From Burkholderiales bacterium (lineage in GTDB: Bacteria; Pseudomonadota; Gammaproteobacteria; Burkholderiales; Burkholderiaceae_C), in the NCBI GenBank assembly GCA_018969975.1, contig JAGWXI010000004.1:1-64000 (forward strand): 64,000 bases of DNA, written 5' to 3'. This document shows, in pieces, positions 22,932 to 53,629 of this stretch. Position 1 is the first letter of the stretch, and the number at the start of each line of letters is the position of its first letter. Made by a program: the position numbers and the translations under genes. A model generated the notes under the pieces. That model was not told where the DNA came from and did not search any database. It saw nothing but the letters and a program-made list of their open reading frames with translations.

Positions 22932-22934
22932 TTA

Positions 22935-24940: not shown

Positions 24941-24975
24941 TTATCAGTAATTGCTAGTTGTTATCGGAGGTGATA

Positions 24976-25887: not shown

Positions 25888-25889
25888 GA

Positions 25890-26941: not shown

Positions 26942-26966
26942 GGTGGTAAATAAGTGATTTATCACC
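26942..26966. promoter_or_regulatory. 25-bp dyad upstream of the TRAP operon
   Basis: GGTGGTAAAT (26942-26951) pairs with ATTTATCACC (26957-26966) across the loop AAGTG, ten base pairs with one G-T. It lies in the gap between the divergent Dpp-type permease gene and dctP, 77 bp before the dctP start. No T-run follows on either strand, so an operator for a dimeric repressor is more likely than a terminator. The cognate regulator is not in the window. Confidence 0.4.
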
Positions 26967-27043
26967 ATAAAAACCCTAGTGCGAGAAGAGACGCCTTGCG
27001 CTTATGCTTGTCATTGGTAACAAATCTTTACAAGGGGAAGACG

Positions 27044-28030: not shown

Positions 28031-28033
28031 CCT

Positions 28034-28510
28034 ATGCAAAAAATACTAGATAACGTAAGCCGGTTCTTGATCTGGATACTGGCGTGCACAGTGATATTGC
28101 TTTTAGTGCCCGTCAGTATGCAAATTTTTTCACGTTTTACCGAGTTGATTCCTCGCTATATGTGGACAGAGGAGATGAGCAGGTTTATGTTTATCTGGAT
28201 GGTCATGATAGGTGCGACTGTAGGTGTACGAGAGGGTTTGCATTTCGACCTTGACGTTTGGCCTAATTTGTCTCCCCAAGCATCTATCAAGCTCAAAATG
28301 GTGAGTAACTTTCTCATTGTTATGTTTGCAGGTGTGGTTTTGTATTGGGGTATTGAATTCACCCAATTTGGTTGGAATCAAACCTCTGAATTAGCCGATA
28401 TGCCAATGTGGTGGATATTTATTGCGTGGCCACTGGCTGGTTTCTTTTGGATTGCTTTTTTGGTAGAGAGCACCCTGCGTGATCTCAAGCACCTATCCGA
28501 AATTTCTTAA
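28034..28510 (+). CDS. dctQ: TRAP transporter small permease (DctQ family)
   Basis: A 158-residue membrane protein with four predicted helices (about 10-30, 50-68, 88-108, 128-148), as usual for DctQ. MWTEEMSRFMFIWMVMIGA at about 43-61 matches the conserved second-helix region with the glutamates and arginine. It supports the large permease DctM in binding the receptor. It is encoded between dctP (3 bp) and dctM (17 bp). Confidence 0.88.
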   Translation: MQKILDNVSRFLIWILACTVILLLVPVSMQIFSRFTELIPRYMWTEEMSRFMFIWMVMIGATVGVREGLHFDLDVWPNLSPQASIKLKMVSNFLIVMFAGVVLYWGIEFTQFGWNQTSELADMPMWWIFIAWPLAGFFWIAFLVESTLRDLKHLSEIS

Positions 28511-28527
28511 AAAATTAGAAAGTATTT

Positions 28528-29847
28528 ATGAGTTCTGCAGTTTTGTCGCCGGGCATGGCCGCGTGGGTGTTATTTGGTAGTTTCTTTGTCTTATTGATTT
28601 TGCGCGTTCCAGTTGCGTTTGCTCTAGGCTTATCTGCATTGCCAGTGCTAATCATTGAACCCCGTTTGTCTCCGATGGTGTTATTCAATGAGATGTTCAA
28701 GTCTTACAACTCTTTCATTTTGTTAGCGGTGCCCTTCTTTTTATTGACTGCAAACTTGATGAACGTCGGAGGAATTACCGACCGTTTGATGCGGCTCTCG
28801 CGTGCTTTGGTAGGACACTTTCCTGGGGGGCTCGCACAAATAAACGTTTTACTCTCCGTTTTCTTTGCGGGAATCTCGGGTTCATCCACTGCTGACGCTG
28901 CAAGCCAAAGTAAATTGTTTATTGAAGCGCAAGTGAAAGAGGGCTATGGCCTGTCTTTTTCCATAGCTATAACTGCTGTTTCTGCAGTTTTGGCGGTCAT
29001 TATTCCGCCCTCTATTTTGATGGTGGTGTGGGGCGGTGTGATATCAACATCCATAGGTGCCATGTATTTGGCAGGAATTGTTCCTGGCTTGTTAATTGGT
29101 GGCGCGCAAATGCTGACCGTTCATGCTTATTCAAAGAAATTTAATTACCCTGTTTATCCCAAAGCCAAGTTCTCGGAAGTCGTTGATTCAGCCGCTATTT
29201 CCATACCTGCGCTTATGACGCCAGTAATTATTGTGGGTGGTATTTTGTTGGGTTGGTTTACCGCTACAGAATCAGCAGCTGTTGCTGTGATTTATGCAGC
29301 TGTGCTCTCGCTGTTTTTCTATCGCGAATTAACGCCTTCTCAGCTATGGGGAGCAATTGTAGATACAGGCAGACTCTCGGCTGTAGCCTTGTTTTGTGTG
29401 GGCACCGCCTCTGTTTTTGGCTGGTTATTGGCCTACTACCAAATTCCGAAAGCTTTGTTGTCGAACGTGCAAGCGTGGGGCTTAGGCGTCATTGGTGTGG
29501 GTATGCTGATTGCTGGTGCTTTTTTGGTCGTAGGGTGTTTTTTGGATGCAATTCCGGCCATCATTATTGTTGGCACCACCCTGCAACCTCTGGCTGAATC
29601 CGTAGGTATGCATCCTGTGCATTTTGCAATCGTGGGCATTGTCTCCTTGGCATTTGGACTGATCACGCCACCCTACGGAATGTGCTTGATGATTTCATGC
29701 GCAGTAGCAAAAGTGCCGCTCAGATTTGCACTAAAAGATACGATGATCATGCTCATACCCATGTTGGTGGTGCTGTGCGGTGTGATTGTGTTTCCTGAGC
29801 TTGCGCTTTTCATGCCCCGCACGTTTGCGCCTGACATGTTGAAATAA
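28528..29847 (+). CDS. dctM: TRAP transporter large permease (DctM family)
   Basis: A 439-residue permease with about 12 membrane segments. FFAGISGSSTADAASQ (about 111-126) is the signature elevator-domain sequence of DctM, and the second symmetry-related region reads TPPYGMCLMISC near the end. It catalyses Na+-coupled uptake of the ligand delivered by DctP. The stop is 31 bp before the next receptor gene. Transcription may continue into the Liv-type cluster, since no terminator is visible between them. Confidence 0.9.
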   Translation: MSSAVLSPGMAAWVLFGSFFVLLILRVPVAFALGLSALPVLIIEPRLSPMVLFNEMFKSYNSFILLAVPFFLLTANLMNVGGITDRLMRLSRALVGHFPGGLAQINVLLSVFFAGISGSSTADAASQSKLFIEAQVKEGYGLSFSIAITAVSAVLAVIIPPSILMVVWGGVISTSIGAMYLAGIVPGLLIGGAQMLTVHAYSKKFNYPVYPKAKFSEVVDSAAISIPALMTPVIIVGGILLGWFTATESAAVAVIYAAVLSLFFYRELTPSQLWGAIVDTGRLSAVALFCVGTASVFGWLLAYYQIPKALLSNVQAWGLGVIGVGMLIAGAFLVVGCFLDAIPAIIIVGTTLQPLAESVGMHPVHFAIVGIVSLAFGLITPPYGMCLMISCAVAKVPLRFALKDTMIMLIPMLVVLCGVIVFPELALFMPRTFAPDMLK

Positions 29848-29878: not shown

Positions 29879-31081
29879 ATGAAATCACGTCGTCAATTTA
29901 TTGGCCATTCGGCAGCTGCTGCATCTGCCTTAGCATTTCCTTTGGTTGGAGGTGCGCAACCCAAGACAGTAAAAATTGGTGTTCTACATCCTGTAACCGG
30001 TGCCCTTGCATATTCAGGTCAGCAGTGCCGTGAAGGCGTCATGATGGCTATTGAGGATATCAACAAGTCAGGTGGATTAAAGTCGCTAGGCGGTGCAAAA
30101 ATAGAAGCACTATTGGGTGATGCGCAATCCACACCCCAAGCAGGTGCTGCAGAAGTTGAAAAGATGAATGAAGCCGGAGTCCATGCCATAGTTGGCGCTT
30201 TTGCTTCGGCTATTTGTTTGGCTACTACACAAGCTGCCGCGAAATATAACTTGCCGCATATCGTTGATGTGGGTGTTGCGGATCAAATTGTTGAACGGGG
30301 TTTGAAAAATACTTTTCGATTTGGTCCCGGTTATAAAAAATGTGCAGAAGTTGCAGTTTCAAATTTACATGTGCTCAATACGGCCGCTGGTAAACCTGCG
30401 CGTTCAGTCATGATCATTCATGAGGAGTCTCTCTTTGGTACAGGCACTGCTAATTTATTGTCTCGCGAACTTCCTGGCTATGGATATGACGTAAAAGAAG
30501 TTATCAAACATGCAAATCCCACGCGCGACTTCAATAATATTGTGCTGCGAATGAAGCAGATAAATCCTGATATTGTTATTCCGGCTAATTATTACAACGA
30601 GTACGCTTTGTTGGTACGTACTATGCAACAACAAAAAGTAACTCCGAAAGCAATCTACTCGGTTCTTGGCGGTGCTGCGTCAAGTTATAAATTCGTTAAA
30701 GAATTTCCTGATGCAGCTAATGGAATTATTGACTGCAACCACTGGTTCAATCCACGTGATAAGCGTTCGCAAGAACTAAAGAAGCGAGTGGAAGCTAAAA
30801 ACTTGTATTTCAGCTATGAGGTATTCATGGCTTATACAGCTATGCGTTTATTGGCAGATGCAATTGATCGCGCTAAATCAACAGAGCGCGCAGCGATCAT
30901 CGATGCCTTGAATAAGAGCACATTTTCAGACCACATCATGCCCTATGGCACTACGCAATTTGTGAACGGCCAAAACATCGGAGCCCAGCCGTTGATGACC
31001 CAAGTAGTAAAGGGTGACATCAAAGTTATTATTCCGCGCGACTACCGAGAAGCAGAGCCCATATTCCCACTGAATGCATAA
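29879..31081 (+). CDS. Branched-chain-amino-acid-type ABC receptor (LivK family), probable Tat substrate
   Basis: A 400-residue periplasmic binding protein of the Liv/Urt receptor family (Peripla_BP_6). The N-terminus KSRRQFIGHSAAAASALAFP has a twin-arginine motif, so export by Tat is likely. KIGVLHPVTGALAYSGQQ opens the mature domain. The Liv receptor family in proteobacteria binds amino acids, amides, aromatic acids and many other organic acids. An AAGGAGA site precedes the ATG. This is the first gene of a tightly packed 12-gene unit that also encodes seven enzymes, so its ligand is probably the substrate of those enzymes. Confidence 0.88.
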   Translation: MKSRRQFIGHSAAAASALAFPLVGGAQPKTVKIGVLHPVTGALAYSGQQCREGVMMAIEDINKSGGLKSLGGAKIEALLGDAQSTPQAGAAEVEKMNEAGVHAIVGAFASAICLATTQAAAKYNLPHIVDVGVADQIVERGLKNTFRFGPGYKKCAEVAVSNLHVLNTAAGKPARSVMIIHEESLFGTGTANLLSRELPGYGYDVKEVIKHANPTRDFNNIVLRMKQINPDIVIPANYYNEYALLVRTMQQQKVTPKAIYSVLGGAASSYKFVKEFPDAANGIIDCNHWFNPRDKRSQELKKRVEAKNLYFSYEVFMAYTAMRLLADAIDRAKSTERAAIIDALNKSTFSDHIMPYGTTQFVNGQNIGAQPLMTQVVKGDIKVIIPRDYREAEPIFPLNA

Positions 31082-31099
31082 GCCCATAAGGGTTTAGAA

Positions 31100-31972
31100 G
31101 TGTTTGATCTATCGATCCTTTTTGCCTCACTACTGAATGGCATTACGACAGGATCGATATATGCATTGATCGCTTTGGGTTTGACATTGATTTATGGTGT
31201 CTTGCACATCATTAACTTTGCTCATGGCGCATTACTGATGGCGTCTTTGTATGGGGTTTATTACTTAAAAGATAGTTTGGGTATAGACCCATATTGGGCC
31301 TTACCCATTGTTGTACCTGTAATGTTTATGTTTGGGTACCTATTGCAACGCGGCATCATCAATCGGGCCAGCCATGGCAAAGATGAAAATATTTTATTGG
31401 TGACATTAGGCCTCTCGATCATTCTTGAAAACTTGGCTTTGTTATTCTTCAAGTCAGATACGCGAAACATTGAAACTCCATACACATTAGCTACAGTAAG
31501 TATTGGTCCGGCCATGATTGCGTTTCCAAAAGTCGTTGCTTTTTTGGGGGCACTTGTAGTTTCTGTCGCTTTGTTGTTAGTTATACATTTCACTTTTCTT
31601 GGTCGCGCCATTCGCGCAGTAGCCAAAGAAAAGCATGGTGCACGCTTAATGGGTATCGACGTGGAACACGTCTATGCAATGTGTTTCGGTATTGGATCTG
31701 CTTGCTTAGGGGCTGCCGCATGTTTTTTGTTGCCAGCCTATTATGTAAATCCAATGGTGGGTAGTGGTTTTGTATTGGTCGCCTTCACCGTTGTTGTTTT
31801 AGGTGGAATGGGAAGTTTTTTGGGGGCACTGCTTGGAGGACTGCTAATTGGTGTTGTCGAATCAATTGGCGGCCTGTATTTAGGGGAGTCACTGGGGCAG
31901 GTTGGAATTTTCATTATTTTCATTGGAGTGCTTCTTTTTCGTCCGCAAGGATTTTTTGGTGCGCGCTCATGA
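31100..31972 (+). CDS. livH: Liv-type ABC permease (LivH family)
   Basis: A 290-residue inner-membrane permease starting with GTG at 31100. The N-terminal GITTGSIYALIALGLTLIYG and NFAHGALLM are the LivH signature, and VVLGGMGSFLGALLGGLLIG near 228-247 is the conserved late region. About eight membrane helices are visible. It overlaps livM by 4 bp (ATGA). It forms the channel with LivM for the ligand held by the upstream receptor. Confidence 0.9.
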   Translation: MFDLSILFASLLNGITTGSIYALIALGLTLIYGVLHIINFAHGALLMASLYGVYYLKDSLGIDPYWALPIVVPVMFMFGYLLQRGIINRASHGKDENILLVTLGLSIILENLALLFFKSDTRNIETPYTLATVSIGPAMIAFPKVVAFLGALVVSVALLLVIHFTFLGRAIRAVAKEKHGARLMGIDVEHVYAMCFGIGSACLGAAACFLLPAYYVNPMVGSGFVLVAFTVVVLGGMGSFLGALLGGLLIGVVESIGGLYLGESLGQVGIFIIFIGVLLFRPQGFFGARS

Positions 31973-32946
31973 AGGATATTTTGACCATTATTGTTTTTGT
32001 CTTTTCGGTTGGATGTATTCCTTTCATGACCGATTCAGGGGTCTTACTTAATTTTGTGATGATGGCTTTGTATGCCTGTTTATTAGCGCAGGCATGGAAC
32101 ATTCTTGGCGGTTTCGGTGGTCAATTTTCATTTGGACATGCAGTTTTTTTTGGTACAGGTGCTTATCTACAAGTGATGGTGCAAACTTATTTTGAATGGA
32201 ATCCCTGGCTTGCCTTGATATCTTCTATGGGTATAAGTGCTTGTGTCGGATTGATTGTGGGCATTTTGTCTTTCCGCTATGGTTTAAAGGGCTCATACTT
32301 TGCTCTTGTCACTTTGGCTTTTGCTGAAGTGTTTCGAATCATTGCCTTGTCTGTCCCATTTACAGGTGCTGGCGTGGGACTGATGCTGCCTTTAAGTGAG
32401 TCTGTTGCCAACATGCAGTTCACAACAAAGGCGGGCTACATTTGGCTTGTCTTAGCATTGGTTTTTATTTCTTTGTGCATCACTGCATGGTTGCGGCATT
32501 CTCGATTCGGTTCTTACCTTCAAGCAATAAGAGATAACGAAGACGCTGCAAGAGCGATTGGTGTAAATCCTTTTACAGTCAAACTTTGGGCAACCGTTAT
32601 ATCTGCTGCTTTAATGGGTTCGGCTGGAGCGTTTTATGTTCAGGTATTTCAATACATTGATCCAACCCTTGCCTTTGGACCGCATACTTCAGTGGAGGCT
32701 TTAGTTGGAGCTATTGTTGGCGGAATGGGGAGTTTATGGGGGCCCGTGGTTGGAGCTTTGACTCTGCACGCTCTTGCAGACCTCACACGTAATATGTTTG
32801 GTCAATTGCCAGGTATCAATATGGTGGTTTATGGTTTTGTTTTAGTTTTAATTGTTATGTTCATGCCTAGAGGGATTGTTGGATTCGCATCGAATTTTTT
32901 AAAAATCCTGTTCAAGAGTGCCAATTCAGGCAAGGAGAGTGCATGA
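31969..32946 (+). CDS. livM: Liv-type ABC permease (LivM family)
   Basis: A 325-residue permease with about ten membrane segments. AWNILGGFGGQFSFGHAVFF (about 43-62) and LQAIRDNEDAARAIGVNPF are family signatures, the latter being the cytoplasmic coupling loop. VGAIVGGMGSLWGPVVGA follows near 255. It starts inside the livH stop and ends inside the livG start (both ATGA overlaps), so translation is coupled. Confidence 0.9.
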   Translation: MKDILTIIVFVFSVGCIPFMTDSGVLLNFVMMALYACLLAQAWNILGGFGGQFSFGHAVFFGTGAYLQVMVQTYFEWNPWLALISSMGISACVGLIVGILSFRYGLKGSYFALVTLAFAEVFRIIALSVPFTGAGVGLMLPLSESVANMQFTTKAGYIWLVLALVFISLCITAWLRHSRFGSYLQAIRDNEDAARAIGVNPFTVKLWATVISAALMGSAGAFYVQVFQYIDPTLAFGPHTSVEALVGAIVGGMGSLWGPVVGALTLHALADLTRNMFGQLPGINMVVYGFVLVLIVMFMPRGIVGFASNFLKILFKSANSGKESA

Positions 32947-33698
32947 ATTTATTGCAAGTCGTTGGTGTATCGCGTGCATTTGGAGGATTACGCGCTGTTG
33001 AGAATGTGAGTTTGGATGTGCCCGCTGGAAGCTTGACTGCTTTGATAGGTCCGAATGGGGCTGGAAAGACCACGTTATTTGCATTGATGTCCGGTTTCTT
33101 GACGCCTGACTCTGGGCAAATTTTTTTTAATGGAACTGATATCACAGGCTCTGCGCCGCACCTCAATACCAAACTTGGGCTAACCCGAACTTTTCAAATT
33201 GTGCAGCCCTTTGCCTCTCAAACGGTTCGTGAAAATATCGCCGTTGGTGCCCACCTTAAGTGCGTACGCCGTGAAGATGCGCTAGACCTCGCAGAAGTTG
33301 TTGCTAATCGTGTGGGCTTGTTTATACAACTGGATAAGCCAGCGTCCGAATTAACTGTAGCGGGTCGCAAACGTTTAGAGTTAGCGCGAGCCTTAGCTAC
33401 TCAACCTAGGATGTTGCTATTGGATGAAGTCCTAGCAGGATTAAATCCACATGAAATTCAAGATATGTTGCCAGTGGTGAGAGGATTAGTTGACAGTGGC
33501 ATTACTATTTTGATGATTGAGCATGTAATGCAAGCGGTCATGAATTTAGCCCAACATGTATGGGTACTGGCACAGGGTCAATTGATCGCGCAAGGTACAC
33601 CCATGCAAGTTACACAAAACTCCCAAGTGGTAGAGGCCTATTTAGGGCATGGTACTTCTGCACGATTGTTGAAATCACAGCAGGTAATGCATGGCTGA
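32943..33698 (+). CDS. livG: Liv-type ABC ATPase (LivG family)
   Basis: A 251-residue ATPase with Walker A GPNGAGKTT (about 37-45) and Walker B MLLLDEVLAGLNPHE. The signature region reads ELTVAGRKRLELARAL in place of the usual LSxG(Q/K)xR, so the LSGG serine-glycine pair is modified. The H-loop is in MIEHVM. It overlaps livM and livF. The altered signature motif may still be functional, since LivG proteins vary here, but it is a divergent copy. Confidence 0.88.
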   Translation: MNLLQVVGVSRAFGGLRAVENVSLDVPAGSLTALIGPNGAGKTTLFALMSGFLTPDSGQIFFNGTDITGSAPHLNTKLGLTRTFQIVQPFASQTVRENIAVGAHLKCVRREDALDLAEVVANRVGLFIQLDKPASELTVAGRKRLELARALATQPRMLLLDEVLAGLNPHEIQDMLPVVRGLVDSGITILMIEHVMQAVMNLAQHVWVLAQGQLIAQGTPMQVTQNSQVVEAYLGHGTSARLLKSQQVMHG

Positions 33699-34401
33699 CC
33701 TACTTTCAATTGAAAAATTGAGAACTGGATACGGCGCGGTTGAAGTCTTGCGTGGTGTTGATATTCGCATAGAACACGGTGAGTTGGTTGCTTTACTAGG
33801 CAGTAATGGTGCTGGTAAATCAACGCTGAATGCTGCCTTGTCTGGTTTGATACCTTTTTGGGATGGGAAACTACTTTTTGATAGCAAAGATCTCACTGGT
33901 ATTCACTATCAACAAATAGTACAGGCAGGTTTGATACAAGTACCTGAAGGACGGAAAGTTTTTCCAAATCTCACTGTTTTGGAAAATTTAGAATTAGGGG
34001 CTTATACCCGTGCGCGGGGGAGAATATCTGAAAATCTGACCCGCGTATTTGACACTTTTCCTCGACTGCGCGAGAGAATAACGCAGCTTGCTGGAACCAT
34101 GAGCGGAGGCGAGCAACAAATGCTGGCTATTGGTCGCGGTCTGATGGCTGAACCTAGGTTGCTCATTTTGGATGAGCCCTCCCTTGGTTTATCACCCTTA
34201 TTGGTAGAGGAAATGTTCACACTCATTGCCAAACTATGTACTGATGGACTATCCATATTATTAGTCGAGCAAAATGTCGGACAGTCACTGGAAATTGCCA
34301 ATCGTGCTTATGTTCTTGAAAATGGAACGATTCGATTTACTGGAACTTGCGCTGAATTGTTATCCAGTGATACTTTGCGAAAATCTTATTTAGGGGTTTA
34401 A
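33691..34401 (+). CDS. livF: Liv-type ABC ATPase (LivF family)
   Basis: A 236-residue ATPase with Walker A GSNGAGKST, signature MSGGEQQMLAIGRGLM, Walker B LLILDEPSLGLSPLL and H-loop LVEQNVGQ. The VPEGRKVFPNLTVLENLELG segment is diagnostic for LivF. It overlaps livG by 8 bp and is followed after 7 bp by the aconitase-family gene. This tight spacing supports one transcript for transport and catabolism. Confidence 0.9.
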   Translation: MADLLSIEKLRTGYGAVEVLRGVDIRIEHGELVALLGSNGAGKSTLNAALSGLIPFWDGKLLFDSKDLTGIHYQQIVQAGLIQVPEGRKVFPNLTVLENLELGAYTRARGRISENLTRVFDTFPRLRERITQLAGTMSGGEQQMLAIGRGLMAEPRLLILDEPSLGLSPLLVEEMFTLIAKLCTDGLSILLVEQNVGQSLEIANRAYVLENGTIRFTGTCAELLSSDTLRKSYLGV

Positions 34402-34408
34402 ATAAAGT

Positions 34409-35674
34409 ATGGCTCAAACCCTTGCACAAAAATTGATCGCTCGTGCTGCAGGGAAAAAACAAGTTGCTGTTGGCGAGCTTGTAACTTGCCAAATTGATTT
34501 GGCTATGTTTCACGATTCTTCTGGCCCACGGCGTTTAAAGCCTATGTTGGATGAACTAGGCGCCAAGATTTGGGATCCATCAAAAGTAGTTTTGGTTATA
34601 GACCACTATGTTCCTGAACAAGATACAGATGCAAAGCGGATTGTTCAAATTGCGCGTGATGCATCTAAAGCTTGGAAGTTGCCGCATGTTATTGATTCAG
34701 AGGGAATTTGTCATGTTGTTTTGCCAGAGCGCGGACATTTACATCCCGGAATGATGTGCGTTGGAGGAGACTCCCATTCCCCTACAGGAGGAGCTTTTGG
34801 TGCCTACATGTTTGGAATCGGTGCTACTGAAATGCTTGGTGTAGTGGTAACGGGTGAGATCTGGTTACAGGTGCCTAAAACGCTTCGAATGGTATGGACT
34901 GGACGACTGAATAAGGGAGTCTTTGCTAAGGACATGATGTTGCACATGATCGGACGCTTTGGAATGAATGGGGGTCAATACCAAGCAGTGGAATTTGCAG
35001 GCGAGGCCATTGCAAATCTTGGTATGCAAGAGCGTATGACACTGTCAAATATGAGTGCAGAGCTAGGCGCTCAGGTTGGATTAATAGCTGCTGACGATGT
35101 AACTTATGCATACTTGCGCAGTGTTGGAGTCCATGCTAAAGATTTGGAGGAATTAAATAATTGGCATGGTGACCCGGATGCCGAACAAGAAGATTTTTAC
35201 TTCAATGCCTCTAAATTAAGCCCGCAAGTTGCTGCACCGCACAGCCCGGCCAATGTAAAGCCCGTCGAAGAATTCAAGAACTTATCCATTGATGTTGCCT
35301 ATATTGGAGCGTGTACAGGTGCGAAATTAGAGGATTTACGAGCTGCTGCGCAAGTTTTGCATGGGAAAAAAATTGCAAAAAATATTCGTTTATTCGTTGC
35401 ACCTGCTAGTGCCAGAGATCAACGCCAAGCTGAGCACGAAGGGATCATGCAGATTTTGCGTGATGCTGGTGCACTCGTGCTTGCAAATAGTTGTGGTGCC
35501 TGTGCTGGTTATGGTGCAACTTTTGAAGAACATTCCACCATAATTTCAAGTACAGCACGAAACTTTAAAGGTCGTATGGGTCCACCTAGCGTGCAAGTGT
35601 ATCTAGCATCCCCTGCGACAGTAGCAGCATCGGCTGTTGAAGGACGCATTAGTGATGTAAGAGAAATGTTATGA
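34409..35674 (+). CDS. Aconitase-superfamily hydro-lyase, large subunit (LeuC/homoaconitase/dimethylmalate-dehydratase-like)
   Basis: A 421-residue [4Fe-4S] dehydratase subunit. Cluster cysteines are visible in IGACTGAKLEDLRAAA and SCGACAGYG. CVGGDSHSPTGGAFGAYMFG corresponds to the GDSHT segment of isopropylmalate isomerase but is divergent. With the small subunit it should add or remove water across the double bond of an unsaturated di- or tricarboxylate. No other leucine-biosynthesis gene is near and the operon is catabolic, so biosynthetic LeuC is unlikely. Close relatives by architecture are homoaconitase, maleate hydratase and 2,3-dimethylmalate dehydratase. Which substrate applies is not known. 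Confidence 0.82.
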   Translation: MAQTLAQKLIARAAGKKQVAVGELVTCQIDLAMFHDSSGPRRLKPMLDELGAKIWDPSKVVLVIDHYVPEQDTDAKRIVQIARDASKAWKLPHVIDSEGICHVVLPERGHLHPGMMCVGGDSHSPTGGAFGAYMFGIGATEMLGVVVTGEIWLQVPKTLRMVWTGRLNKGVFAKDMMLHMIGRFGMNGGQYQAVEFAGEAIANLGMQERMTLSNMSAELGAQVGLIAADDVTYAYLRSVGVHAKDLEELNNWHGDPDAEQEDFYFNASKLSPQVAAPHSPANVKPVEEFKNLSIDVAYIGACTGAKLEDLRAAAQVLHGKKIAKNIRLFVAPASARDQRQAEHEGIMQILRDAGALVLANSCGACAGYGATFEEHSTIISSTARNFKGRMGPPSVQVYLASPATVAASAVEGRISDVREML

Positions 35675-36168
35675 CTACGTATAAGTCGCGTGTATGGAAA
35701 TTAGGGTCGGATGTTGATACCGATTCGCTTGCCCCTGGTGCGTATATGAAGTACGGTGTTGATGTCATTGCGCAATATTGTTTAGAAGCGATTCGTCCTG
35801 ATTTTGCTAAAAATGTTCGAGCTGGTGATGTTTTAGTTGCTGGTCCCAATTTTGGCATTGGTTCTTCTAGAGAACAGGCCGTTGAAGTTTTAATGCATTT
35901 AGGTTTGAGAGCGGTAATTGCGCCAACGTTTGGCGGATTATTTTTCCGTAACGCCTTCAATCTAGGTTTACTTTTGATAACTTGCCCTGAGGCTGAAAAA
36001 ATACTTCAAGACGAAACTATTACCTTGCTGGAAACTGGAGAAATAGAACGAGAAAATGGAACGGTGCTGATGTGCAACAAAACCCCAGATTTCTTGATGA
36101 ATATGATTCATGTCGGAGGTTTAATGAATGTTTTGAAATTACGAAGTCAGGGAAATCTCGATGCATGA
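35671..36168 (+). CDS. Aconitase-superfamily hydro-lyase, small subunit (LeuD-like)
   Basis: A 165-residue swivel-domain subunit. DVDTDSLAPGAYMKYG (about 12-27) is the DTD plus substrate-specificity loop, and FGIGSSREQAVEVL contains the GSSRE active-site motif. The specificity loop after the DTD segment reads AYMKYG, unlike the YLKT or YLRT of typical isopropylmalate isomerases, consistent with another substrate. It starts in the stop of the large-subunit gene (ATGA) and overlaps the next gene by 8 bp. Confidence 0.85.
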   Translation: MTTYKSRVWKLGSDVDTDSLAPGAYMKYGVDVIAQYCLEAIRPDFAKNVRAGDVLVAGPNFGIGSSREQAVEVLMHLGLRAVIAPTFGGLFFRNAFNLGLLLITCPEAEKILQDETITLLETGEIERENGTVLMCNKTPDFLMNMIHVGGLMNVLKLRSQGNLDA

Positions 36169-37849
36169 TCCAAATGAGCGACAGTCTATTGACCCTGTAA
36201 CTCTCGCAGTACTGAAGGGCCGTCTAGAGCAAATTGCTGACGAAATGGATGCCACCCTTTACCGAAGCGCTTTCAACCCCATCATTGCAGAGGCACATGA
36301 CGCTTGTCATGGACTCTATGACGCGCTAACTGGTGACACTTTGATACAGGGTAAGTCAGGTCTGCCGGTCTTTGTAGGCGCCATGGCTTTTGCGGTACGC
36401 ACTGCTGCTCGAACCGCCCAAGAGCGCGGTGGTATGTTAGATGGGGATACATGGCTTTTTAATGATCCTTACGAAGGTGGAACGCATGCAAATGACTTTA
36501 AGTTAGTGCGTCCCTTTTTTCGAGATGGACGTTTGTTTTGCTACCTTGCTTCTGCAGCACATTGGCACGACGTCGGTGGTGCAGTTCCAGGTAATTACAA
36601 CCCCGCGGCGACCGAATGTTGGCAAGAGGCCGTTCAAATTCCACCGGTTCGAATTGTTCGGCAAGATCTATTGGAACAAGATGTGCTTGCGATATTACGT
36701 GCCAATACCCGACTTCCTGACAGTCTCTGGGGAGATTTAAATGGTCAACTTGCGGCCTTGGAATTGGGTGTAAAGCGGTTGCACGATTTACTTGATGAAT
36801 ACAGCGATAGTCGAGTCTTGGAAGCAATGGAAGAATTACGAAAACGTGCATTGACGTTAATGCGTACGCACATCAACACCTTGCCTGATGGTGTTTATAG
36901 TTTTGAAGATGTACTGGATAACGATGGCGTAAAAGATGAGTTGCTAACTATTGCCCTGGATATGACGGTCAAAGGCGACCGAATGACGCTTGATTTTTCC
37001 CGCACCTCTGATCAGTGTGCAGGTCCAGTCAATATTTCTAGGGCCACTGCTGTTGCAGCTTGTTATGTGGCCCTCAAGCATGTCTTTCCAGATGTGCCTG
37101 CCAACGCTGGTGTCTTAGATGCTGTGGATTTTCTGATGCCTGATCGGTTAGTAATTACTGCTGAGCGACCTAGACCTGTGGGGGGGTATACCGAAACTAT
37201 TTTGCGAATGATTGATGTCATTTTTAGTGCTTTTGCCTTGGCAGATCCACACAGAGCAGTCGCTCACGCGTACGGAACCATTAATGCCCTTTCCATTGCA
37301 GGCCACCGAAGCGATAGTGGGCGTAAAGGACAACGTTGGGTGATGTTTAGTTTCTTTGGCGGAGGTCACGGCGGGCATAGCGATGGCGATGGTTTAAGCC
37401 ATGGAAATGCTCCCATTTCAACTGCAACGATTCCACCATTGGAAATTTTGGAGGCCGCATACCCTGTACGATTCACGCAGTGGTCTCTTCGGCAAGACTC
37501 TGGTGGCAAGGGTAAGCATCGCGGTGGTTTAGGTGCGGTATATGAAATCGAATTATTGGAAGAAAACGCAGAGGTTTTTATTTTTGGAGAGCGTGGTAGA
37601 GCTCCGCCTAAAGGCATAGCGGGTGGTGGCGATGCCTTACCCAATATTTTTTCATATCAACATCAAGGCAAGTGGTGCAGGCCTCCTATGGTCTCCAAGA
37701 TGCTTGGTATTGAACTCAAGAGAGGGGAACGGGTTCGGCTGGAAACACCGGGAGGGGGCGGTTGGGGTAACCCATCTGAAAGAGATGTCACATTGCAAAA
37801 AATAGATGAAGATTTCGCTTACATAACGAACTCAAAAAATCTTCGTTAA
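36161..37849 (+). CDS. Hydantoinase B/oxoprolinase family protein
   Basis: A 562-residue protein of the HyuB family (N-methylhydantoinase B, 5-oxoprolinase C-terminal half, acetone/acetophenone carboxylase alpha-type subunits). Conserved parts are the N-terminal IDPVTLAVLKGRLEQIADEM, NDPYEGGTHANDFKLVRPFF and GGGHGGHSDGDGLSHGNAP. The C-terminal TPGGGGWGNPSERD is the usual end of the family. With the A subunit encoded 10 bp downstream it would open a cyclic amide/imide or carboxylate a ketone in an ATP-dependent reaction. Full length. The substrate is not determined by sequence alone. Confidence 0.88.
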   Translation: MHDPNERQSIDPVTLAVLKGRLEQIADEMDATLYRSAFNPIIAEAHDACHGLYDALTGDTLIQGKSGLPVFVGAMAFAVRTAARTAQERGGMLDGDTWLFNDPYEGGTHANDFKLVRPFFRDGRLFCYLASAAHWHDVGGAVPGNYNPAATECWQEAVQIPPVRIVRQDLLEQDVLAILRANTRLPDSLWGDLNGQLAALELGVKRLHDLLDEYSDSRVLEAMEELRKRALTLMRTHINTLPDGVYSFEDVLDNDGVKDELLTIALDMTVKGDRMTLDFSRTSDQCAGPVNISRATAVAACYVALKHVFPDVPANAGVLDAVDFLMPDRLVITAERPRPVGGYTETILRMIDVIFSAFALADPHRAVAHAYGTINALSIAGHRSDSGRKGQRWVMFSFFGGGHGGHSDGDGLSHGNAPISTATIPPLEILEAAYPVRFTQWSLRQDSGGKGKHRGGLGAVYEIELLEENAEVFIFGERGRAPPKGIAGGGDALPNIFSYQHQGKWCRPPMVSKMLGIELKRGERVRLETPGGGGWGNPSERDVTLQKIDEDFAYITNSKNLR

Positions 37850-37859
37850 TATTTAATTT

Positions 37860-39932
37860 ATGCCTACTTTAAAAAATCAATCGCCTCACTTAATAGTAGG
37901 GGTCGATGTCGGTGGAACTTTTACTGACTTGTTCGTTTTAGACGAGCACGATGGAACAGCACACATCATAAAAGTGCCTTCTACCCGAGGTGAGGAAGCT
38001 CGAGGTTTTATGAATGGGCTAACCTGTATGAGTGAGGATCGATCAAAGGGAGTAGCTTCTTCTGTTTCAACAATCGTCCACGGTACTACTGTAGGAACTA
38101 ATGCGTTGCTAGAGCGTAAGGTAGCGCGAACTGGCATTCTTACTACGCGTGGTTTTCGTGACGTTTTAGAAATGCGCAGGCGGGATCGTCCGCAGACCTG
38201 GGGCTTGCGGGGAAGCTTTCAACCTATAGTTCAACGTAATTTACGATTAGAGGTCGATGAGCGTGTGTTGGCAGATGGAAGCTTGCACACTGCTGTTGAT
38301 CTTTTGCAGGTTCGTTCACAAGCACAACTACTGATTGACGCTGGTTGTGAGGCAATATGTATTTTCTTTATCAATGCGTATGCTAATCCCATCAATGAAC
38401 AACTAGCGGTCGCTGTCGTTAGAGAGATGTGGCCTAACCCTTTTGTGACAGCTGCAAGTGAAGTTTTGCCTGAGATACGAGAATTTGAGCGATGCTCTAC
38501 CGCCACCCTCAATGCGGCATTACAACCCGTTGTAGGTAGTTATTTGTCAAACCTAGATGATGATTTACGAAGCGAAGGATTTGCCGGTGAATTATTAATT
38601 GTGCAAAGTAACGGTGGGGTGATGTCTAGTAAGACGGCATGCGATGTACCCGTGCGAACGGCGCTATCGGGACCTGCTGCAGGAGTGATTGCTTGTGCTT
38701 CGGTTGCACGTGCTTCAGGTTTTCTCAATGTAATTACTGGAGACATGGGTGGAACTTCATTTGATGTATCACTTGTTGCTAATGGAGAAGCTGCACTGAC
38801 AGCGCAGACCTCTATAGAGTTTGGTTTAGTCGTTCGCTCCCCAATGATCCAGATTGAAACGATTGGTGCAGGGGGTGGCTCAATCGCCAGCGTAGATGCA
38901 AGTGGGATGTTACGCGTAGGACCTGAGTCGGCAGGTAGTAATCCTGGTCCAGTTTGTTATGGAAAAGGCAATACGCTTCCTACCGTAACTGATGCAAATG
39001 TTGTACTGGGCAGAATTGCAGCGGATCGTCCGTTAGGCGGAGGTTCGCTAAATGCGTTAGATAAAAAATCTGCGGAACAAGCTATTGAAGATACTATTGC
39101 TAAACCATTAGGTTTGGATACGCTTGCTGCGGCAGAGGCAATATTGACAGTTGCAAATGCGAAGATGGCTGGAGCGATTAGGGTTGTTTCGATTGAGCGG
39201 GGACATGATCCCCGCCAGTTTGCCTATATGCCTTTTGGCGGAGGTGGCGCTCTCCACGTATGCGCCATGATGCGAGAGGTTGGTGTAATCACTGGAATCG
39301 TGCCACGTTATCCTGGTGTTACGTCTGCATTGGGATGCGTGATGGCAGATATGCGTCATGATGCAGTCCAAACTCTCAATAAATCTTTAGCAGACTTGGA
39401 TTTAGTACATCTCAAAACTCTTTTAAACCAATTGGCTGTTACTTGTCAGAAACGACTTGATTCTGCGGGCGTTAAATTTGAGCGCATTGACGAAGTTATT
39501 GCGCTTGATATGCTTTATATGGGACAAACCCATACATTAGCAGTTCTAATAGATCAGGGTAATTTGACGCATGAAACAATTAAATCTGCTTTTGAAAAAA
39601 CATATCTTGCATCTTTTGGTCGAGTACTCAGCGGTATAACCATCCGTGTGATGAATTTGCGTTACGCGAGAATAGGCGTACGACCTAAATTTGATTTAAC
39701 CATTTTGGCGCCAAAAGCATTAGGTGTTTGGGAATCTCTTGGAGTGCAAAAAGTTTTTCATAGTGGTCAATGGTGGGATGCCCAACGCTATGCTCGCCTT
39801 GAACTACCAGTTGGATCAAAGATTAAGGGTCCAGCTATTTTTGAGCAAGCAGATACAACTATCTGGTTGGAGCCAGGCTTCGCTGCAAGAGTAGATTCTC
39901 TTGGCAATTTATTGGTGGACAGGACCTCATAA
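37860..39932 (+). CDS. Hydantoinase A/oxoprolinase family protein
   Basis: A 690-residue HyuA subunit with the actin-like ATPase fold. The N-terminal phosphate loop is GVDVGGTFTDLFVLDE. VHGTTVGTNALLERK, GDMGGTSFDVSLV and IGAGGGSIASVDASGMLRVG are conserved nucleotide and domain signatures. HyuA proteins phosphorylate the substrate oxygen, and HyuB completes ring opening. It follows hyuB-like by 10 bp and overlaps the next gene by one base. Length and motifs are intact. Alternatives are an acetone- or acetophenone-type carboxylase subunit, but the gamma subunit of those is not seen. Confidence 0.88.
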   Translation: MPTLKNQSPHLIVGVDVGGTFTDLFVLDEHDGTAHIIKVPSTRGEEARGFMNGLTCMSEDRSKGVASSVSTIVHGTTVGTNALLERKVARTGILTTRGFRDVLEMRRRDRPQTWGLRGSFQPIVQRNLRLEVDERVLADGSLHTAVDLLQVRSQAQLLIDAGCEAICIFFINAYANPINEQLAVAVVREMWPNPFVTAASEVLPEIREFERCSTATLNAALQPVVGSYLSNLDDDLRSEGFAGELLIVQSNGGVMSSKTACDVPVRTALSGPAAGVIACASVARASGFLNVITGDMGGTSFDVSLVANGEAALTAQTSIEFGLVVRSPMIQIETIGAGGGSIASVDASGMLRVGPESAGSNPGPVCYGKGNTLPTVTDANVVLGRIAADRPLGGGSLNALDKKSAEQAIEDTIAKPLGLDTLAAAEAILTVANAKMAGAIRVVSIERGHDPRQFAYMPFGGGGALHVCAMMREVGVITGIVPRYPGVTSALGCVMADMRHDAVQTLNKSLADLDLVHLKTLLNQLAVTCQKRLDSAGVKFERIDEVIALDMLYMGQTHTLAVLIDQGNLTHETIKSAFEKTYLASFGRVLSGITIRVMNLRYARIGVRPKFDLTILAPKALGVWESLGVQKVFHSGQWWDAQRYARLELPVGSKIKGPAIFEQADTTIWLEPGFAARVDSLGNLLVDRTS

Positions 39933-40534
39933 TGCGTTGCAAAATAAATGGTCTGGCATGTTTAATCATCGTAGATTTACAAAATGACTTTTTATCGCCA
40001 GAAGGTGCTTATGCCCGTGGTAAAACTATCAGCCATGAGGCGCTTCTCTTGCCTGAGCGTCTGGTCCCAATAGCTCAGGAAGTTAAAAAACATCATGGAT
40101 TAGTGGTTGCAAGTCTTTTTACTTTATGGCCTGATGCAGCGGGTCAGCCTATGATTTCACCGCACTTACTGGAGCGGCGTCCTTTTTTAAAAAAAGGCGA
40201 TTTTTCACCTGGTACTTGGGGGCAAGCTAATGTTCCTTCCATTGCGTCGGTGGTGGATGTGACTGTTTCCAAAGTGGCCTACTCAGCTTTCTTTAACACT
40301 CAACTTGATTGGGTACTAAGAAAGGCTGAAATCACTACGGTAGTTATTTGCGGAATCGTTACCAACGGTGGGGTGGCTAGTACTGTTAGAGATGCGCATA
40401 TGCGTGATTACCAAACCGTGGTTCTAAGCGATGGATGTGCTACTTTTACGCAAACAGCCCACCAAGCTGCTTTAACTGATATGTCTTCAGTCGCGCAAGT
40501 GATGACGTGTGAACAATTTTTAGAAATCCTATGA
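39932..40534 (+). CDS. Isochorismatase-fold hydrolase lacking the nucleophilic cysteine
   Basis: A 200-residue member of the isochorismatase/cysteine hydrolase family. The aspartate D15 (IVDLQNDF) and lysine K114 (TVSKVAYSAF) of the usual Asp-Lys-Cys triad are present. The nucleophile segment reads CGIVTNGGVASTVRDA, placing glycine (G147) where amidases such as PncA or N-carbamoylsarcosine amidohydrolase have cysteine. Isochorismatases of the PhzD type also have no cysteine there and use acid catalysis. An amidase role is therefore doubtful, and vinyl-ether-like or another hydrolysis is possible. It overlaps both neighbours by 1-4 bp. Confidence 0.8.
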   Translation: MRCKINGLACLIIVDLQNDFLSPEGAYARGKTISHEALLLPERLVPIAQEVKKHHGLVVASLFTLWPDAAGQPMISPHLLERRPFLKKGDFSPGTWGQANVPSIASVVDVTVSKVAYSAFFNTQLDWVLRKAEITTVVICGIVTNGGVASTVRDAHMRDYQTVVLSDGCATFTQTAHQAALTDMSSVAQVMTCEQFLEIL

Positions 40535-41904
40535 CAACAAGTGTGCATCGCATTCAAAGCTTGGATGCGCCAGCACACACTGCTGTAGTTATTGTGGGTG
40601 CTGGGGCTTGTGGCTTGACGGCTGCTTTAACTCTTGCACATCTGGGAAAAGAGTGCGTTATTTTGGAGCGTGATGCGATGCCTGCAGGTTCAACGGCATT
40701 GTCGTCTGGGTTTGTTCCAGCCGCAGTTACACAAGCGCAAAAAACACAAGGCATTCATGATTCTGCAGACTTGTTTGCTAATGATATTCAATTGAAGGCA
40801 AGGGGTAATGCATCTTCGTTATTGGTTAAGGCATATACCGAAGCTATTGGTCCGGCGATGGATGCCTTATCTATCCACCATGGAATACCGTGGCAAGTGA
40901 TTGATACATTTTTATACCCCGGTCACTCGGTTCACCGTATGCACGCAGTACCAGAAAAAACTGGTGCTGGCTTGATGATGCGATTACAAAATGCAGCTGA
41001 GTCTGCGGGTGTAGTTATCTTGACGCAAGCAAGAGCGACTGATCTCTATGTCAATCATGCAGATAAAGCGCTTGGGATTGGGTTTATTCGTCCAGATGGG
41101 CGGTTGGAGAAACTGAGTTGCGAAAAAGTCTTATTTGCCTGTAACGGATTTGGAGGTGATGCTGATCTAGTTAGTGACTATTTGCCACAAATGCGTGATG
41201 CGTTGTATGCAGGACATATTGGAAACGATGGCAGTGCAATCAAATGGGGACGACAACTAGGTGCGCAACTATCAGACCTTGGAGGGTACCAAGGACACGG
41301 TTCTTGGGCTATTCCTCAAGGTGCTTTGATAACTTGGGCGTTGATGATGGAAGGTGCAGTTCAAATTAATGCGAACGGGGAACGGTTTCATGATGAATCA
41401 CAGGGCTATTCGGAGGCGGCAGTACATGTATTGACCCAACCTTTTGGTATGGTTTGGAATATTTTTGATGATCAACTTTTGAAGTTCGCGCAAGATTTTC
41501 CAGATTTTGTTGAGGCGCAAGCCGCTGGGGTTATTCGCAGTTTTAAAGATATTGAAGCTCTCGCAAAGTACATAGGCTGTGGTGCAAAAAAATTAGCAGA
41601 TACGCTTAATCTAGTAAGAGAAGGCGAAGATCAGCAGACCGGTCGTATTTTTAAACGTAATCTCTCACTGCCGCTTCATGCAATTCGCGTGACTGGTGCT
41701 TTATTTCATACCCAGGGTGGTTTAGATATTAATGCGCATTGTCAAGTAATGCGTCCAGACGCAAGCATATTTCCAAACTTACTCGCTGCAGGAGGTGCAG
41801 CACGTGGTGTTTCTGGAAATGACGTTTGGGGATATTTGTCTGGTAATGGACTGTTAAGCGCCATAGCAGGTGGATACATAGCCGCGCACACCGCTGCTGA
41901 GTGA
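40531..41904 (+). CDS. FAD-dependent oxidoreductase (fumarate reductase/KstD-like flavoprotein family)
   Basis: A 457-residue flavoprotein of the FAD_binding_2 family, which includes fumarate and urocanate reductases and 3-ketosteroid dehydrogenases. The dinucleotide loop is VGAGACGLTAALTLA (about 22-36), followed by GSTALSSGFVPA. The C-terminal FAD region has TQGGLDIN and AAGGAARGVSGNDVWGYLSGNG. No signal peptide or heme-binding motif is seen, so it is cytosolic. It would reduce or introduce a C=C bond next to a carbonyl. It overlaps the preceding gene by 4 bp. Confidence 0.85.
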   Translation: MTTSVHRIQSLDAPAHTAVVIVGAGACGLTAALTLAHLGKECVILERDAMPAGSTALSSGFVPAAVTQAQKTQGIHDSADLFANDIQLKARGNASSLLVKAYTEAIGPAMDALSIHHGIPWQVIDTFLYPGHSVHRMHAVPEKTGAGLMMRLQNAAESAGVVILTQARATDLYVNHADKALGIGFIRPDGRLEKLSCEKVLFACNGFGGDADLVSDYLPQMRDALYAGHIGNDGSAIKWGRQLGAQLSDLGGYQGHGSWAIPQGALITWALMMEGAVQINANGERFHDESQGYSEAAVHVLTQPFGMVWNIFDDQLLKFAQDFPDFVEAQAAGVIRSFKDIEALAKYIGCGAKKLADTLNLVREGEDQQTGRIFKRNLSLPLHAIRVTGALFHTQGGLDINAHCQVMRPDASIFPNLLAAGGAARGVSGNDVWGYLSGNGLLSAIAGGYIAAHTAAE

Positions 41905-41918
41905 TAAGGGATGAATTT

Positions 41919-42779
41919 ATGGAATTAAAAAATCGATTAGTAAAAACTGAGGTTCTTTTAGTGCCGGGAGTTTATGACGCCCTGAGTGCGTTGATCGCAG
42001 AGCAGGCTGGATTCGAAGCTTTGTATTTGTCTGGTGCTTCTATTGCCTATACGTTGCTTGGGAGATCTGATGTAGGACTAACTACTGCAAGTGAGGTTGT
42101 CAATACTCTGGCGCACATTACGGATCGTGTAAAAATTCCAGTCATCGTCGATGCTGATACTGGATTTGGAAATGCATTGAATACACAGCGTACTGTGCGT
42201 GATTTCGAACGTGCTGGAGCAAGCATGATTCAATTAGAGGATCAAACTTTTCCTAAACGTTGTGGGCATCTAGACGGTAAATCTGTTATTTCAGTCGTAG
42301 AGATGGAAGGAAAGTTGCAAGCCGCTTTAGATGCTAGGCATACTTCCAATACGTTGATATTAGCCAGAACAGACGCACTGGCAGTTGAAGGACTAGATGC
42401 CGCAATTGACCGAGCTGAGCGCTATTTAGCCTGTGGTGTAGATGCTATTTTTATCGAGGCTGTTCGAACTGCAGATCAAATGCATACCGTTTGTCAAAGG
42501 TTTGCATCACGGATTCCAATGCTCGCAAATATGGTGGAGGGAGGTAAAACCCCTGTTCAAAGTGCCAAAGAGTTGGGTGAAAGCGGCTACAAAATTGTTA
42601 TCTTTCCGGGTGGGACTGCTCGCGCTGTATCACACACACTACAGGGGTATTTTTCTAGTTTGATGCAGCACCAAACTACCCAGCCTTGGCAAAATCAAAT
42701 GCTGGATTTCGATGGATTGAATACGCTGATAGGCACATCAGATCTAATTAGCTTGGGTAAAAAATACGAATCTAATTAA
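41919..42779 (+). CDS. Isocitrate lyase/PEP mutase superfamily lyase (dimethylmalate/methylisocitrate lyase-like)
   Basis: A 286-residue TIM-barrel enzyme. The ATG at 41919 has an AAGGGA site at normal spacing; a GTG at 41901 would add six residues and overlap the previous stop. VDADTGFGNA gives the Mg2+ aspartates (D78, D80). PKRCGH (C115) is the catalytic cysteine loop of isocitrate, 2-methylisocitrate and 2,3-dimethylmalate lyases; PEP mutases lack this cysteine. It should cleave a 2- or 3-hydroxy-diacid by retro-Claisen/retro-aldol to two smaller acids. It is the last gene of the 12-gene unit, 14 bp after the flavoprotein. Confidence 0.87.
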   Translation: MELKNRLVKTEVLLVPGVYDALSALIAEQAGFEALYLSGASIAYTLLGRSDVGLTTASEVVNTLAHITDRVKIPVIVDADTGFGNALNTQRTVRDFERAGASMIQLEDQTFPKRCGHLDGKSVISVVEMEGKLQAALDARHTSNTLILARTDALAVEGLDAAIDRAERYLACGVDAIFIEAVRTADQMHTVCQRFASRIPMLANMVEGGKTPVQSAKELGESGYKIVIFPGGTARAVSHTLQGYFSSLMQHQTTQPWQNQMLDFDGLNTLIGTSDLISLGKKYESN

Positions 42780-53623: not shown

Positions 53624-53629
53624 GAACCT

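Follow-up and report, generated by a model that had tools for sequence, protein, structure and literature searches.

The stretch of DNA analysed here (the window: the first 64,000 nucleotides of contig JAGWXI010000004.1, assembly GCA_018969975.1, from a Burkholderiales bacterium) contains at positions 29879-42779 twelve consecutive plus-strand open reading frames (ORFs) that encode a Liv-type importer, a LeuCD-like hydratase, a HyuB-HyuA pair, an isochorismatase-fold protein, an FAD enzyme and a lyase of the isocitrate lyase (ICL) superfamily. They are a real and widespread catabolic gene set of known enzyme families that apparently has escaped description so far. Opening of a cyclic imide, followed by hydration and cleavage by the lyase, is the probable course of the encoded pathway. 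The substrate would be a five-membered imide substituted with 2-methyl and 3-(carboxyethyl) groups, the likeliest candidate being hematinic acid (the methyl, carboxyethyl maleimide), perhaps together with its dihydro form; to this assignment we give slightly less than an even chance. Gene content, conservation, the exchange of the ring opener among relatives and the linkage of glutarate genes in some relatives were computed, and from them we infer all steps of the pathway. The genes, all on the plus strand, are:

29879..31081, +, LivK-type solute-binding protein (family scans; many loci have a homologue next to the core)
31100..31972, +, LivH permease (named from sequence; homologues in other loci)
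31969..32946, +, LivM permease (named from sequence; homologues in other loci)
32943..33698, +, LivG ATPase (named from sequence; homologues in other loci)
33691..34401, +, LivF ATPase (named from sequence; homologues in other loci)
34409..35674, +, LeuC-like hydratase large subunit, hacA/DmdA-type family (family scans, Cys motifs)
35671..36168, +, LeuD/DmdB-type small subunit with the motif YMKY (family scans, motif comparison)
36161..37849, +, HyuB, putative caprolactamase-beta-like subunit of an ATP-dependent ring-opening hydrolase (family scans)
37860..39932, +, HyuA, putative caprolactamase-alpha-like subunit of the same type of hydrolase (family scans)
39932..40534, +, predicted isochorismatase-fold hydrolase with Asp15, Lys114 and Gly147 in place of Cys (family scans, alignment)
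40531..41904, +, FAD-dependent oxidoreductase of the fumarate/urocanate-reductase and TcuA superfamily (FAD_binding_2; flavocytochrome c/fumarate-reductase type)
41901..42779, +, Cys-type ICL-superfamily lyase with PKRCGH at residues 118-123, in a clade of its own (family scans, tree); putative splitter of a methyl-homoisocitrate-like tricarboxylate

The eleven junctions comprise eight overlaps (1-8 bp) and three gaps (18, 7 and 10 bp), and the ORF listing thus agrees with the original prediction, made from the letters of the DNA, that the genes are packed with overlaps or gaps of at most 18 bp. LivK and the seven enzyme genes were scanned with Pfam and NCBIfam, which bore out the families named there; LivH, LivM, LivG and LivF owe their names to sequence, outside these scans.

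According to the proposed pathway, the imide would arise by oxidation of heme, bilins or chlorophyll and would be brought into the cell by LivKHMGF. With ATP, HyuA and HyuB would open it to a maleamate-type half-amide, from which the isochorismatase-fold enzyme would free ammonia; where the dihydro form is the substrate, the FAD enzyme would desaturate it. LeuCD would hydrate the methyl-homoaconitate-like tricarboxylate, and the ICL-fold lyase would split the hydrated tricarboxylate into pyruvate and glutarate. Glutarate could then enter metabolism via CoA transfer and a glutaryl-CoA dehydrogenase encoded elsewhere in the genome. Few pigments are as abundant as heme and chlorophyll. Cleavage of heme by ChuS yields hematinic acid, as stated in passages of PMC11442138 and PMC8131568, and a passage of PMC7318184 reports hematinic acid in leaves and herbivore samples in amounts like those of other chlorophyll products, with maleimides undetected. 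In the open-access literature searched no function is described for this gene set, and its best-ranked matches, with most subscription journals outside the search, name no bacterial pathway that consumes hematinic acid.

Conservation of the gene set

All or part of the set (LeuCD and the Cys-type lyase with HyuBA, isochorismatase, FAD enzyme and Liv) recurs across Alpha-, Beta- and Gammaproteobacteria. Because the same set is found in many genomes, its gene order is far from chance, which removes the doubt, expressed with the original prediction, that the neighbors might not be conserved. Relatives were collected by a contig scan with 17 aligned lyases; the named loci are the best 80 of 580 confirmed relatives, to which four of eight plasmid regions (a clade lyase is encoded in L034-L037, none in L038-L041) and loci from additional genomes were added. 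In the class samples a clean gap separates the clade lyases (at least 428.8 bits) from the rest (at most 330.3 bits). With the search seeds included, a clade lyase occurs in 4 of 369 genomes of one class (that of the L137 genome) and in 46 of 385 genomes of another (that of the L123 genome). The rows nearest to the window lyase, among the matches listed, are from Limnohabitans and uncultured Burkholderiales, and 9 of 21 sampled genomes of the genus, the window's genome included, contain the lyase.

After removal of the same-genome duplicates L091, L088, L181 and L146, which were kept in the isochorismatase and LeuD residue counts, 140 clade-lyase loci were typed: 59 contain HyuAB, 17 contain another pair of hydrolases (PDA, see below), none contains both and 64 contain neither in the stretch. 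Before duplicate removal, 13 of 66 "neither" loci were shorter than 12 kb. Of the typed loci, HyuAB-type L113 belongs to Roseibium limicola CAU 1637 and PDA-type L137 to Marinobacter oulmenensis DSM 22359. Rows of a family were dropped if they had less than 80% of the reference length or less than 40% identity (30% for LeuC/LeuD). A LeuC homologue of at least 45% identity was found in 40/59 HyuAB-type, 12/17 PDA-type and 29/64 "neither" loci, and a distant one (30-45%) in 11/59, 4/17 and 4/64, respectively. The isochorismatase matching the type is present in 55/59 HyuAB-type and 14/17 PDA-type loci, the FAD gene in 40/59 and 6/17.

Two exchangeable, putative ring-opening modules

HyuA and HyuB contain the Hydantoinase_A and Hydantoinase_B Pfam domains in paired genes. 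A function as an acetone or acetophenone carboxylase was rejected since the caprolactamase models score far higher (CapA 523 bits versus ApcC 305 for HyuA; CapB 269 versus ApcD 110 for HyuB), and the grouping with ketone carboxylases that the original prediction had set against itself is thus not borne out. The caprolactamase equivalog cut-offs (1000) were not reached. A HyuAB relative acts on a lactam, according to a passage of PMC6061476. The host genome, a 2.72-Mb draft of 167 contigs that is 89% complete, carries two more HyuA-family genes on contigs C74 (L059) and C104 (L058), one adjoined by HyuB, the other within an open frame of 1078 residues.

In 17 of the 140 loci HyuAB is absent and two polysaccharide-deacetylase-fold hydrolases of the PuuE/imidase family (PDA1 and PDA2) are present instead; a locus was called PDA-type when it encoded PDA1 at 50% identity or more. 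By the thresholds used, HyuAB and PDA never occur together (0/140), weak PDA homologues (29-36%) in the HyuAB-type loci L120 and L159 having been left out of the counts. The PDA proteins are PuuE-like (142 and 128 bits, below the cut-off of 425), and PuuE (3cl6) is among their closest solved chains. A passage of a paper on nicotinate use by A. nidulans (PMC9304392) relates the cyclic imidase HxnM to PuuE and the imidase of P. putida. In the lyase tree (FastTree, 79 rows) the HyuAB and PDA labels interleave, with nine changes, at least four of which are forced by well-supported branches. The PDA-type locus L135 retains, adjoining its PDA genes, a HyuB remnant of 62 residues that is 74% identical. 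Two unrelated machines thus serve the same downstream enzymes, and the swapped modules therefore point to the opening of a cyclic imide and the removal of its nitrogen. The sequence of imide opening, hydration and retro-aldol (or retro-Claisen) splitting that the original prediction had outlined is supported.

The two types also differ in their isochorismatase-fold protein. Fourteen of the 17 PDA-type loci encode a different, Cys-keeping isochorismatase with the Asp-Lys-Cys triad in 15/15 rows (14 loci; L036 was counted twice because it is also the reference). Its closest solved chain is 4l07, tabulated as "isochorismatase family", which we take to be Hpo, the P. putida S16 maleamate amidase; the PDA-type protein also matches N-carbamoylsarcosine amidohydrolase. 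In the HyuAB-type protein (the window and 59 relative rows) Asp and Lys are conserved in 60/60 rows and Cys in 0/60, Gly taking its place. A role of the window protein as a classical Cys amidase such as maleamate amidase or RutB is for this reason unsupported. True isochorismatases likewise are not known to contain this Cys. Dialkylmaleamic acids shed their amine through the neighboring carboxylate; chemists know the anhydride of hematinic acid as CDM. Acid-base catalysis might therefore be enough for the Cys-less enzyme, which we offer as a proposal.

Proposed hydration and cleavage

LeuC and LeuD belong to the aconitase/LeuCD-type hydro-lyases (TIGR01343, 428 bits, cut-off 386; NF001614, 519, cut-off 385; TIGR02087, 149, cut-off 109). 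Biosynthetic isopropylmalate isomerase (IPMI), which the original prediction had named as the identity that would tell against it, was rejected for both subunits: LeuC scores 262 bits with TIGR00170 (cut-off 560) and 358 with TIGR02083 (cut-off 611), and LeuD scores 50 bits with TIGR00171 (cut-off 116). Cys302, Cys362 and Cys365 of LeuC, located in GACTGA and NSCGACA, are presumed to be the Fe-S ligands, a role that we assign from knowledge of the family. The operon LeuC is one of three aconitase-family proteins of the host genome, the genes of the other two lying on contigs C60 and C61 (the latter a partial match).

A loop in LeuD governs substrate preference, according to a passage of PMC7308503 (citing Jeyakanthan 2010). 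In the window LeuD this loop reads YMKY, with a basic third residue, and Lys or Arg is found at that position in 78/83 rows with an orthologous LeuC and in 12/13 other rows. Among solved chains the loop reads YLRT in homoaconitase (2pkp) and YLVY in an IPMI/citramalate isomerase (3vba); E. coli LeuD reads FLQK. Because the motif is basic, as in homoaconitase and unlike 3vba, it suggests a LeuCD substrate with a third carboxylate, that is, a tricarboxylate, a conclusion that is supported, not proven. Ten of the 80 named loci, most of them of rhizobial type, have a distant paralogue as their LeuCD, and the hydratase step therefore seems to be kept even where its gene was replaced. Two Peribacillus plasmids encode a related LeuCD together with a CaiB CoA-transferase and an annotated hydroxymethylglutaryl-CoA lyase (L039:12784-18684; L040:12527-17697), possibly a CoA-level version of the same endgame. 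Genes similar to those on these plasmids also occur, together with a clade lyase, in L078 and L096.

The lyase is a member of the Cys-type ICL/phosphoenolpyruvate-mutase superfamily (PF13714, 147 bits; KRCGH invariant in 17/17 rows). It was rejected as PrpB since it scores 286 bits with TIGR02317 (cut-off 354) and falls into a separate clade. In a tree of 42 rows (24 clade members, 14 other lyases and four solved references: two PrpB, the petal death protein and a Bacillus enzyme), in which the program flags long branches among the references, the 24 chosen clade lyases form one group with a support of 100/97, apart from PrpB; the grouping with methylisocitrate lyase that had been feared was not observed. 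No gene of the host genome (89% complete, as noted) exceeds the PrpB cut-off. The clade lyase keeps R241, an Arg present in PrpB and absent from the petal death protein. The residues following SG are small (SGAS), as in PrpB (SGGG); isocitrate lyase presumably has Trp after SG. The solved relatives also include dicarboxylate lyases, namely the petal death protein and dimethylmalate lyase.

Linkage to glutarate genes

The question of glutarate genes was posed after the annotation of the PDA-type locus L036 had listed a CaiB gene and an acyl-CoA dehydrogenase without stated specificity. It was then reasoned that a methyl, carboxyethyl maleimide would end as pyruvate and glutarate, and the L036 genes were checked for glutarate types. 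The L036 dehydrogenase matched solved glutaryl-CoA dehydrogenase 3gnc best (735 bits). For the linked dehydrogenases the NCBIfam glutaryl-CoA dehydrogenase model was not the top match and its cut-off was not reached; the naming therefore rests on the 3gnc match and on identity to the L036 protein. Five of the 17 PDA-type loci, L036, L123, L137, L162 and L165, encode a glutaryl-CoA dehydrogenase (at least 60% identity) no more than 10 kb from the lyase; the proteins of the latter four are 64-72% identical to that of L036. The L165 genome (G695) has a second copy elsewhere on the same contig. Succinate-glutarate CoA-transferase-like proteins are encoded in L036 (542 bits), L137 (516) and L180 (513), all below the cut-off of 750. 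L180 is a HyuAB-type locus in which the glutarate-type transferase ORF overlaps the isochorismatase ORF by 4 bp. In total, 6 of 140 loci have a linked glutarate gene, five with the dehydrogenase and L180 with the transferase alone. CaiB-family neighbors with 31-44% identity were excluded from the glutarate transferases, as was that of L096, whose 53% identity is to a different reference.

Statistical support for the linkage is modest. The Fisher test of PDA-type (5/17) versus HyuAB-type loci (0/59) gives P 0.0003, uncorrected for relatedness. Judged by eye, 4 of 51 clade lyases have the dehydrogenase within 20 kb, two of the four being search seeds; for same-genome lyases outside the clade the figure is 0/59, the nearest dehydrogenase being about 49 kb away (P 0.04 by the Fisher test, with two of four positives seeds and most control pairs on different draft contigs). 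Without L036 and with L123, L162 and L165 collapsed, two positives remain, with a binomial P of 0.18 for all loci and 0.003 for the PDA type only; these values assume 20-kb stretches and a density of one gene in 3.5 Mb, and the type split was made after the data had been seen. Each of 17 pathway genomes has one glutaryl-CoA dehydrogenase copy; that of the host genome (84% identity) lies on contig C83, unlinked to the operon. It is the glutarate module of some relatives that narrows the maleimides from tetrapyrrole decay, a class named in the original prediction, to hematinic acid; the origin from tetrapyrroles is retained.

Evaluation of the proposed substrate

Several observations weigh against hematinic acid, the identity of which as the substrate is itself inferred. 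The isochorismatase-fold enzyme of the window's own type lacks the Cys nucleophile (Gly147). The FAD enzyme, which belongs to the fumarate/urocanate-reductase superfamily and matches tricarballylate dehydrogenase more weakly, is devoid of the Arg of the NRLGGN motif seen in fumarate reductases, the role of which we take as given; its substrate may therefore be the neutral imide rather than an acid, and it would work on the dihydro-imide that derives from ring D of chlorophyll. In solved bacterial IPMI chains (3h5e and 3h5j, FLKR) the LeuD motif has Lys as well. Glutaryl-CoA dehydrogenase lies beside none of the 59 loci of the window's HyuAB type and none of the 64 "neither" loci, three of the five positives (L123, L162 and L165) are relatives in the lyase tree, and in L137 TRAP genes and a GntR gene stand between the dehydrogenase and the core. 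Genome-wide presence of the dehydrogenase does not discriminate (46/50 clade-positive versus 27/30 control genomes); because control genomes have it too, genome-wide presence was dropped as evidence and only linkage was used. Finally, 64 of 140 loci carry the lyase without a ring-opening module in the stretch covered, 31 of these also without LeuC, some being cut by contig ends.

Another alkylmaleimide (ethylmethyl-, methylvinyl- or methylmaleimide) might be degraded to pyruvate (or glyoxylate) and butyrate, crotonate, propionate or acetate. Every enzyme step up to the lyase would fit it equally well, the dicarboxylate lyases among the solved relatives would accommodate it, the window has no linked glutarate gene and a passage of PMC7318184 names these maleimides as tetrapyrrole products. 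We nevertheless regard it as unlikely: the samples of that study, according to the same passage, contained hematinic acid and no maleimides, the linked acyl-CoA genes of clear type encode glutaryl-CoA dehydrogenase and a glutarate-type CoA-transferase, and the basic LeuD motif suggests a third carboxylate. A similarly small chance is given to split substrates, with the PDA type taking an imide and the HyuAB type a lactam, for example a pyrrolinone fragment of a bilin, that would be opened to an enamine; the Cys-less isochorismatase-fold enzyme would hydrolyse the enamine by protonation, and LeuCD and the lyase would receive the same diacid. True isochorismatases act by protonation on an enol ether. 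This scenario, too, explains the loss of Cys (Gly in 60/60 HyuAB-type rows, Cys in 15/15 PDA-type rows); it agrees with lactam opening by a HyuAB relative (PMC6061476, in the passage cited above) and with dehydrogenase linkage in PDA-type loci only. The two types interleave on one lyase tree, however, and the HyuAB-type operon of L180 contains a glutarate-type CoA-transferase.

Far less probable is a substrate without the methyl group, carboxyethyl-maleimide or another homoaconitate-like compound yielding glyoxylate and glutarate. Membership of LeuC in the homoaconitate-hydratase family (TIGR01343) and the glutarate module fit, but the small residues after SG in the lyase resemble those of PrpB, which yields pyruvate, and we know of no abundant natural source of such a compound. 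Hardly more is to be said for a ureide or hydantoin pathway, in which HyuAB or the PuuE-like proteins would open hydantoin, the isochorismatase-fold protein would remove the carbamoyl nitrogen and LeuCD and the lyase would serve a separate acid. Both families are known for hydantoins and allantoin, and the PDA-type isochorismatase matches N-carbamoylsarcosine amidohydrolase; yet LeuCD and the lyase, which require a diacid with a double bond or a hydroxyl group, persist while the ring opener changes, and no amino-group-removing gene was noticed among the named neighbors, for which no systematic search was made.

Degradation of hematinic acid therefore stays our preferred reading. On a wider scale, and more tentatively than the choice of substrate, we propose a dedicated bacterial route that would mineralise the pyrrole-derived imides of heme, bilins and chlorophyll through a methylcitrate-like split to pyruvate and glutarate. 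Its ring opening would come in two or more interchangeable versions, one of them with an isochorismatase-fold enzyme that may have discarded its nucleophile because dialkylmaleamic acids can lose ammonia via their own carboxylate.

Genomic surroundings

A second importer gene set immediately precedes the operon:

26954..29847, +, TRAP transporter DctP-DctQ-DctM, ending 31 bp before livK; possible extra importer

Since the TRAP genes and livK share a strand and follow one another with gaps of 3, 17 and 31 bp, the transcription unit may comprise 15 genes. In both congeners checked (L200 and L201) a GntR-family gene, not TRAP, lies upstream of livK; in L200 and L203 a TctC (Bug) receptor-like ORF was seen by eye between livF and leuC. 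Divergent from the TRAP genes is an oligopeptide-type ABC transporter set (21339-26870) with a family 5 binding protein on the plus strand and two permeases and two ATPases on the minus strand. Directly after the lyase gene, on the opposite strand (42786-45288), lie genes for a TauE/SafE-type exporter and a FeoB-like transporter of ferrous iron; that iron uptake is encoded next to a possible operon for heme fragments may be coincidence. Further on (52457-56940), a second series of genes, seen as ORFs only, has Liv-transporter-like sizes (388, 290, 330, 262 and 248 residues). The promoter scan remained below chance (14 found versus 28.7 expected) and the terminator scan near chance (20 versus 17.9). 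PMC5979394, which deals with RpoN and a hydantoinase operon, was considered, and its passages established no tie to the operon described here.

Other genes recur near the core in the 97 clustered loci. A fused small tautomerase-SnoaL-like protein, which perhaps shifts a double bond, is encoded in 11 (L100, L103, L105, L107, L113, L121, L122, L126, L131, L133 and L137; e.g. L137:9336-9896), and a gene of the MmgE/PrpD (2-methylcitrate dehydratase) family in nine (L103, L108, L109, L116, L120, L127, L128, L129 and L131; e.g. L131:8581-9999), one member of each having been scanned. Racemase genes also recur.

Comparison with known systems

If the proposed pathway is true, the operon can serve as a genetic marker of a final step in tetrapyrrole turnover, and widespread genes whose deposited names are "3-isopropylmalate dehydratase", "hydantoinase" and "pyrimidine utilization protein B" gain a function. 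It would then also provide a natural experiment in which a catalytic nucleophile has been lost while the fold stayed the same.

The operon resembles the end of the methylcitrate cycle (2-methylaconitate hydratase and PrpB), where hydration by an aconitase-superfamily enzyme is likewise followed by a Cys-type lyase that forms pyruvate and a diacid; it differs in its LeuCD-type heterodimer, its separate lyase clade and its proposed product, glutarate instead of succinate. In nicotinate fermentation DmdAB is followed by dimethylmalate lyase, and a LeuCD-type hydratase and an ICL-superfamily lyase act in series as in the operon, which in addition has an imide-opening module and, in some relatives, glutarate genes. 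HyuA and HyuB find their best-scoring named models in the caprolactamase CapAB/ATP-dependent hydantoinase group, but they lie far under the cut-offs and have different operon neighbors. Degradation of cyclic imides by imidase and half-amidase and the maleamate amidases of the nicotine and nicotinate pathways correspond to the PDA-type loci, in that imide opening and ammonia release lead to a maleate-type acid. The substituted acid would here, in contrast, proceed to hydration by LeuCD and cleavage, and in 59 of the 76 loci with a ring opener HyuAB replace the imidase-like pair.

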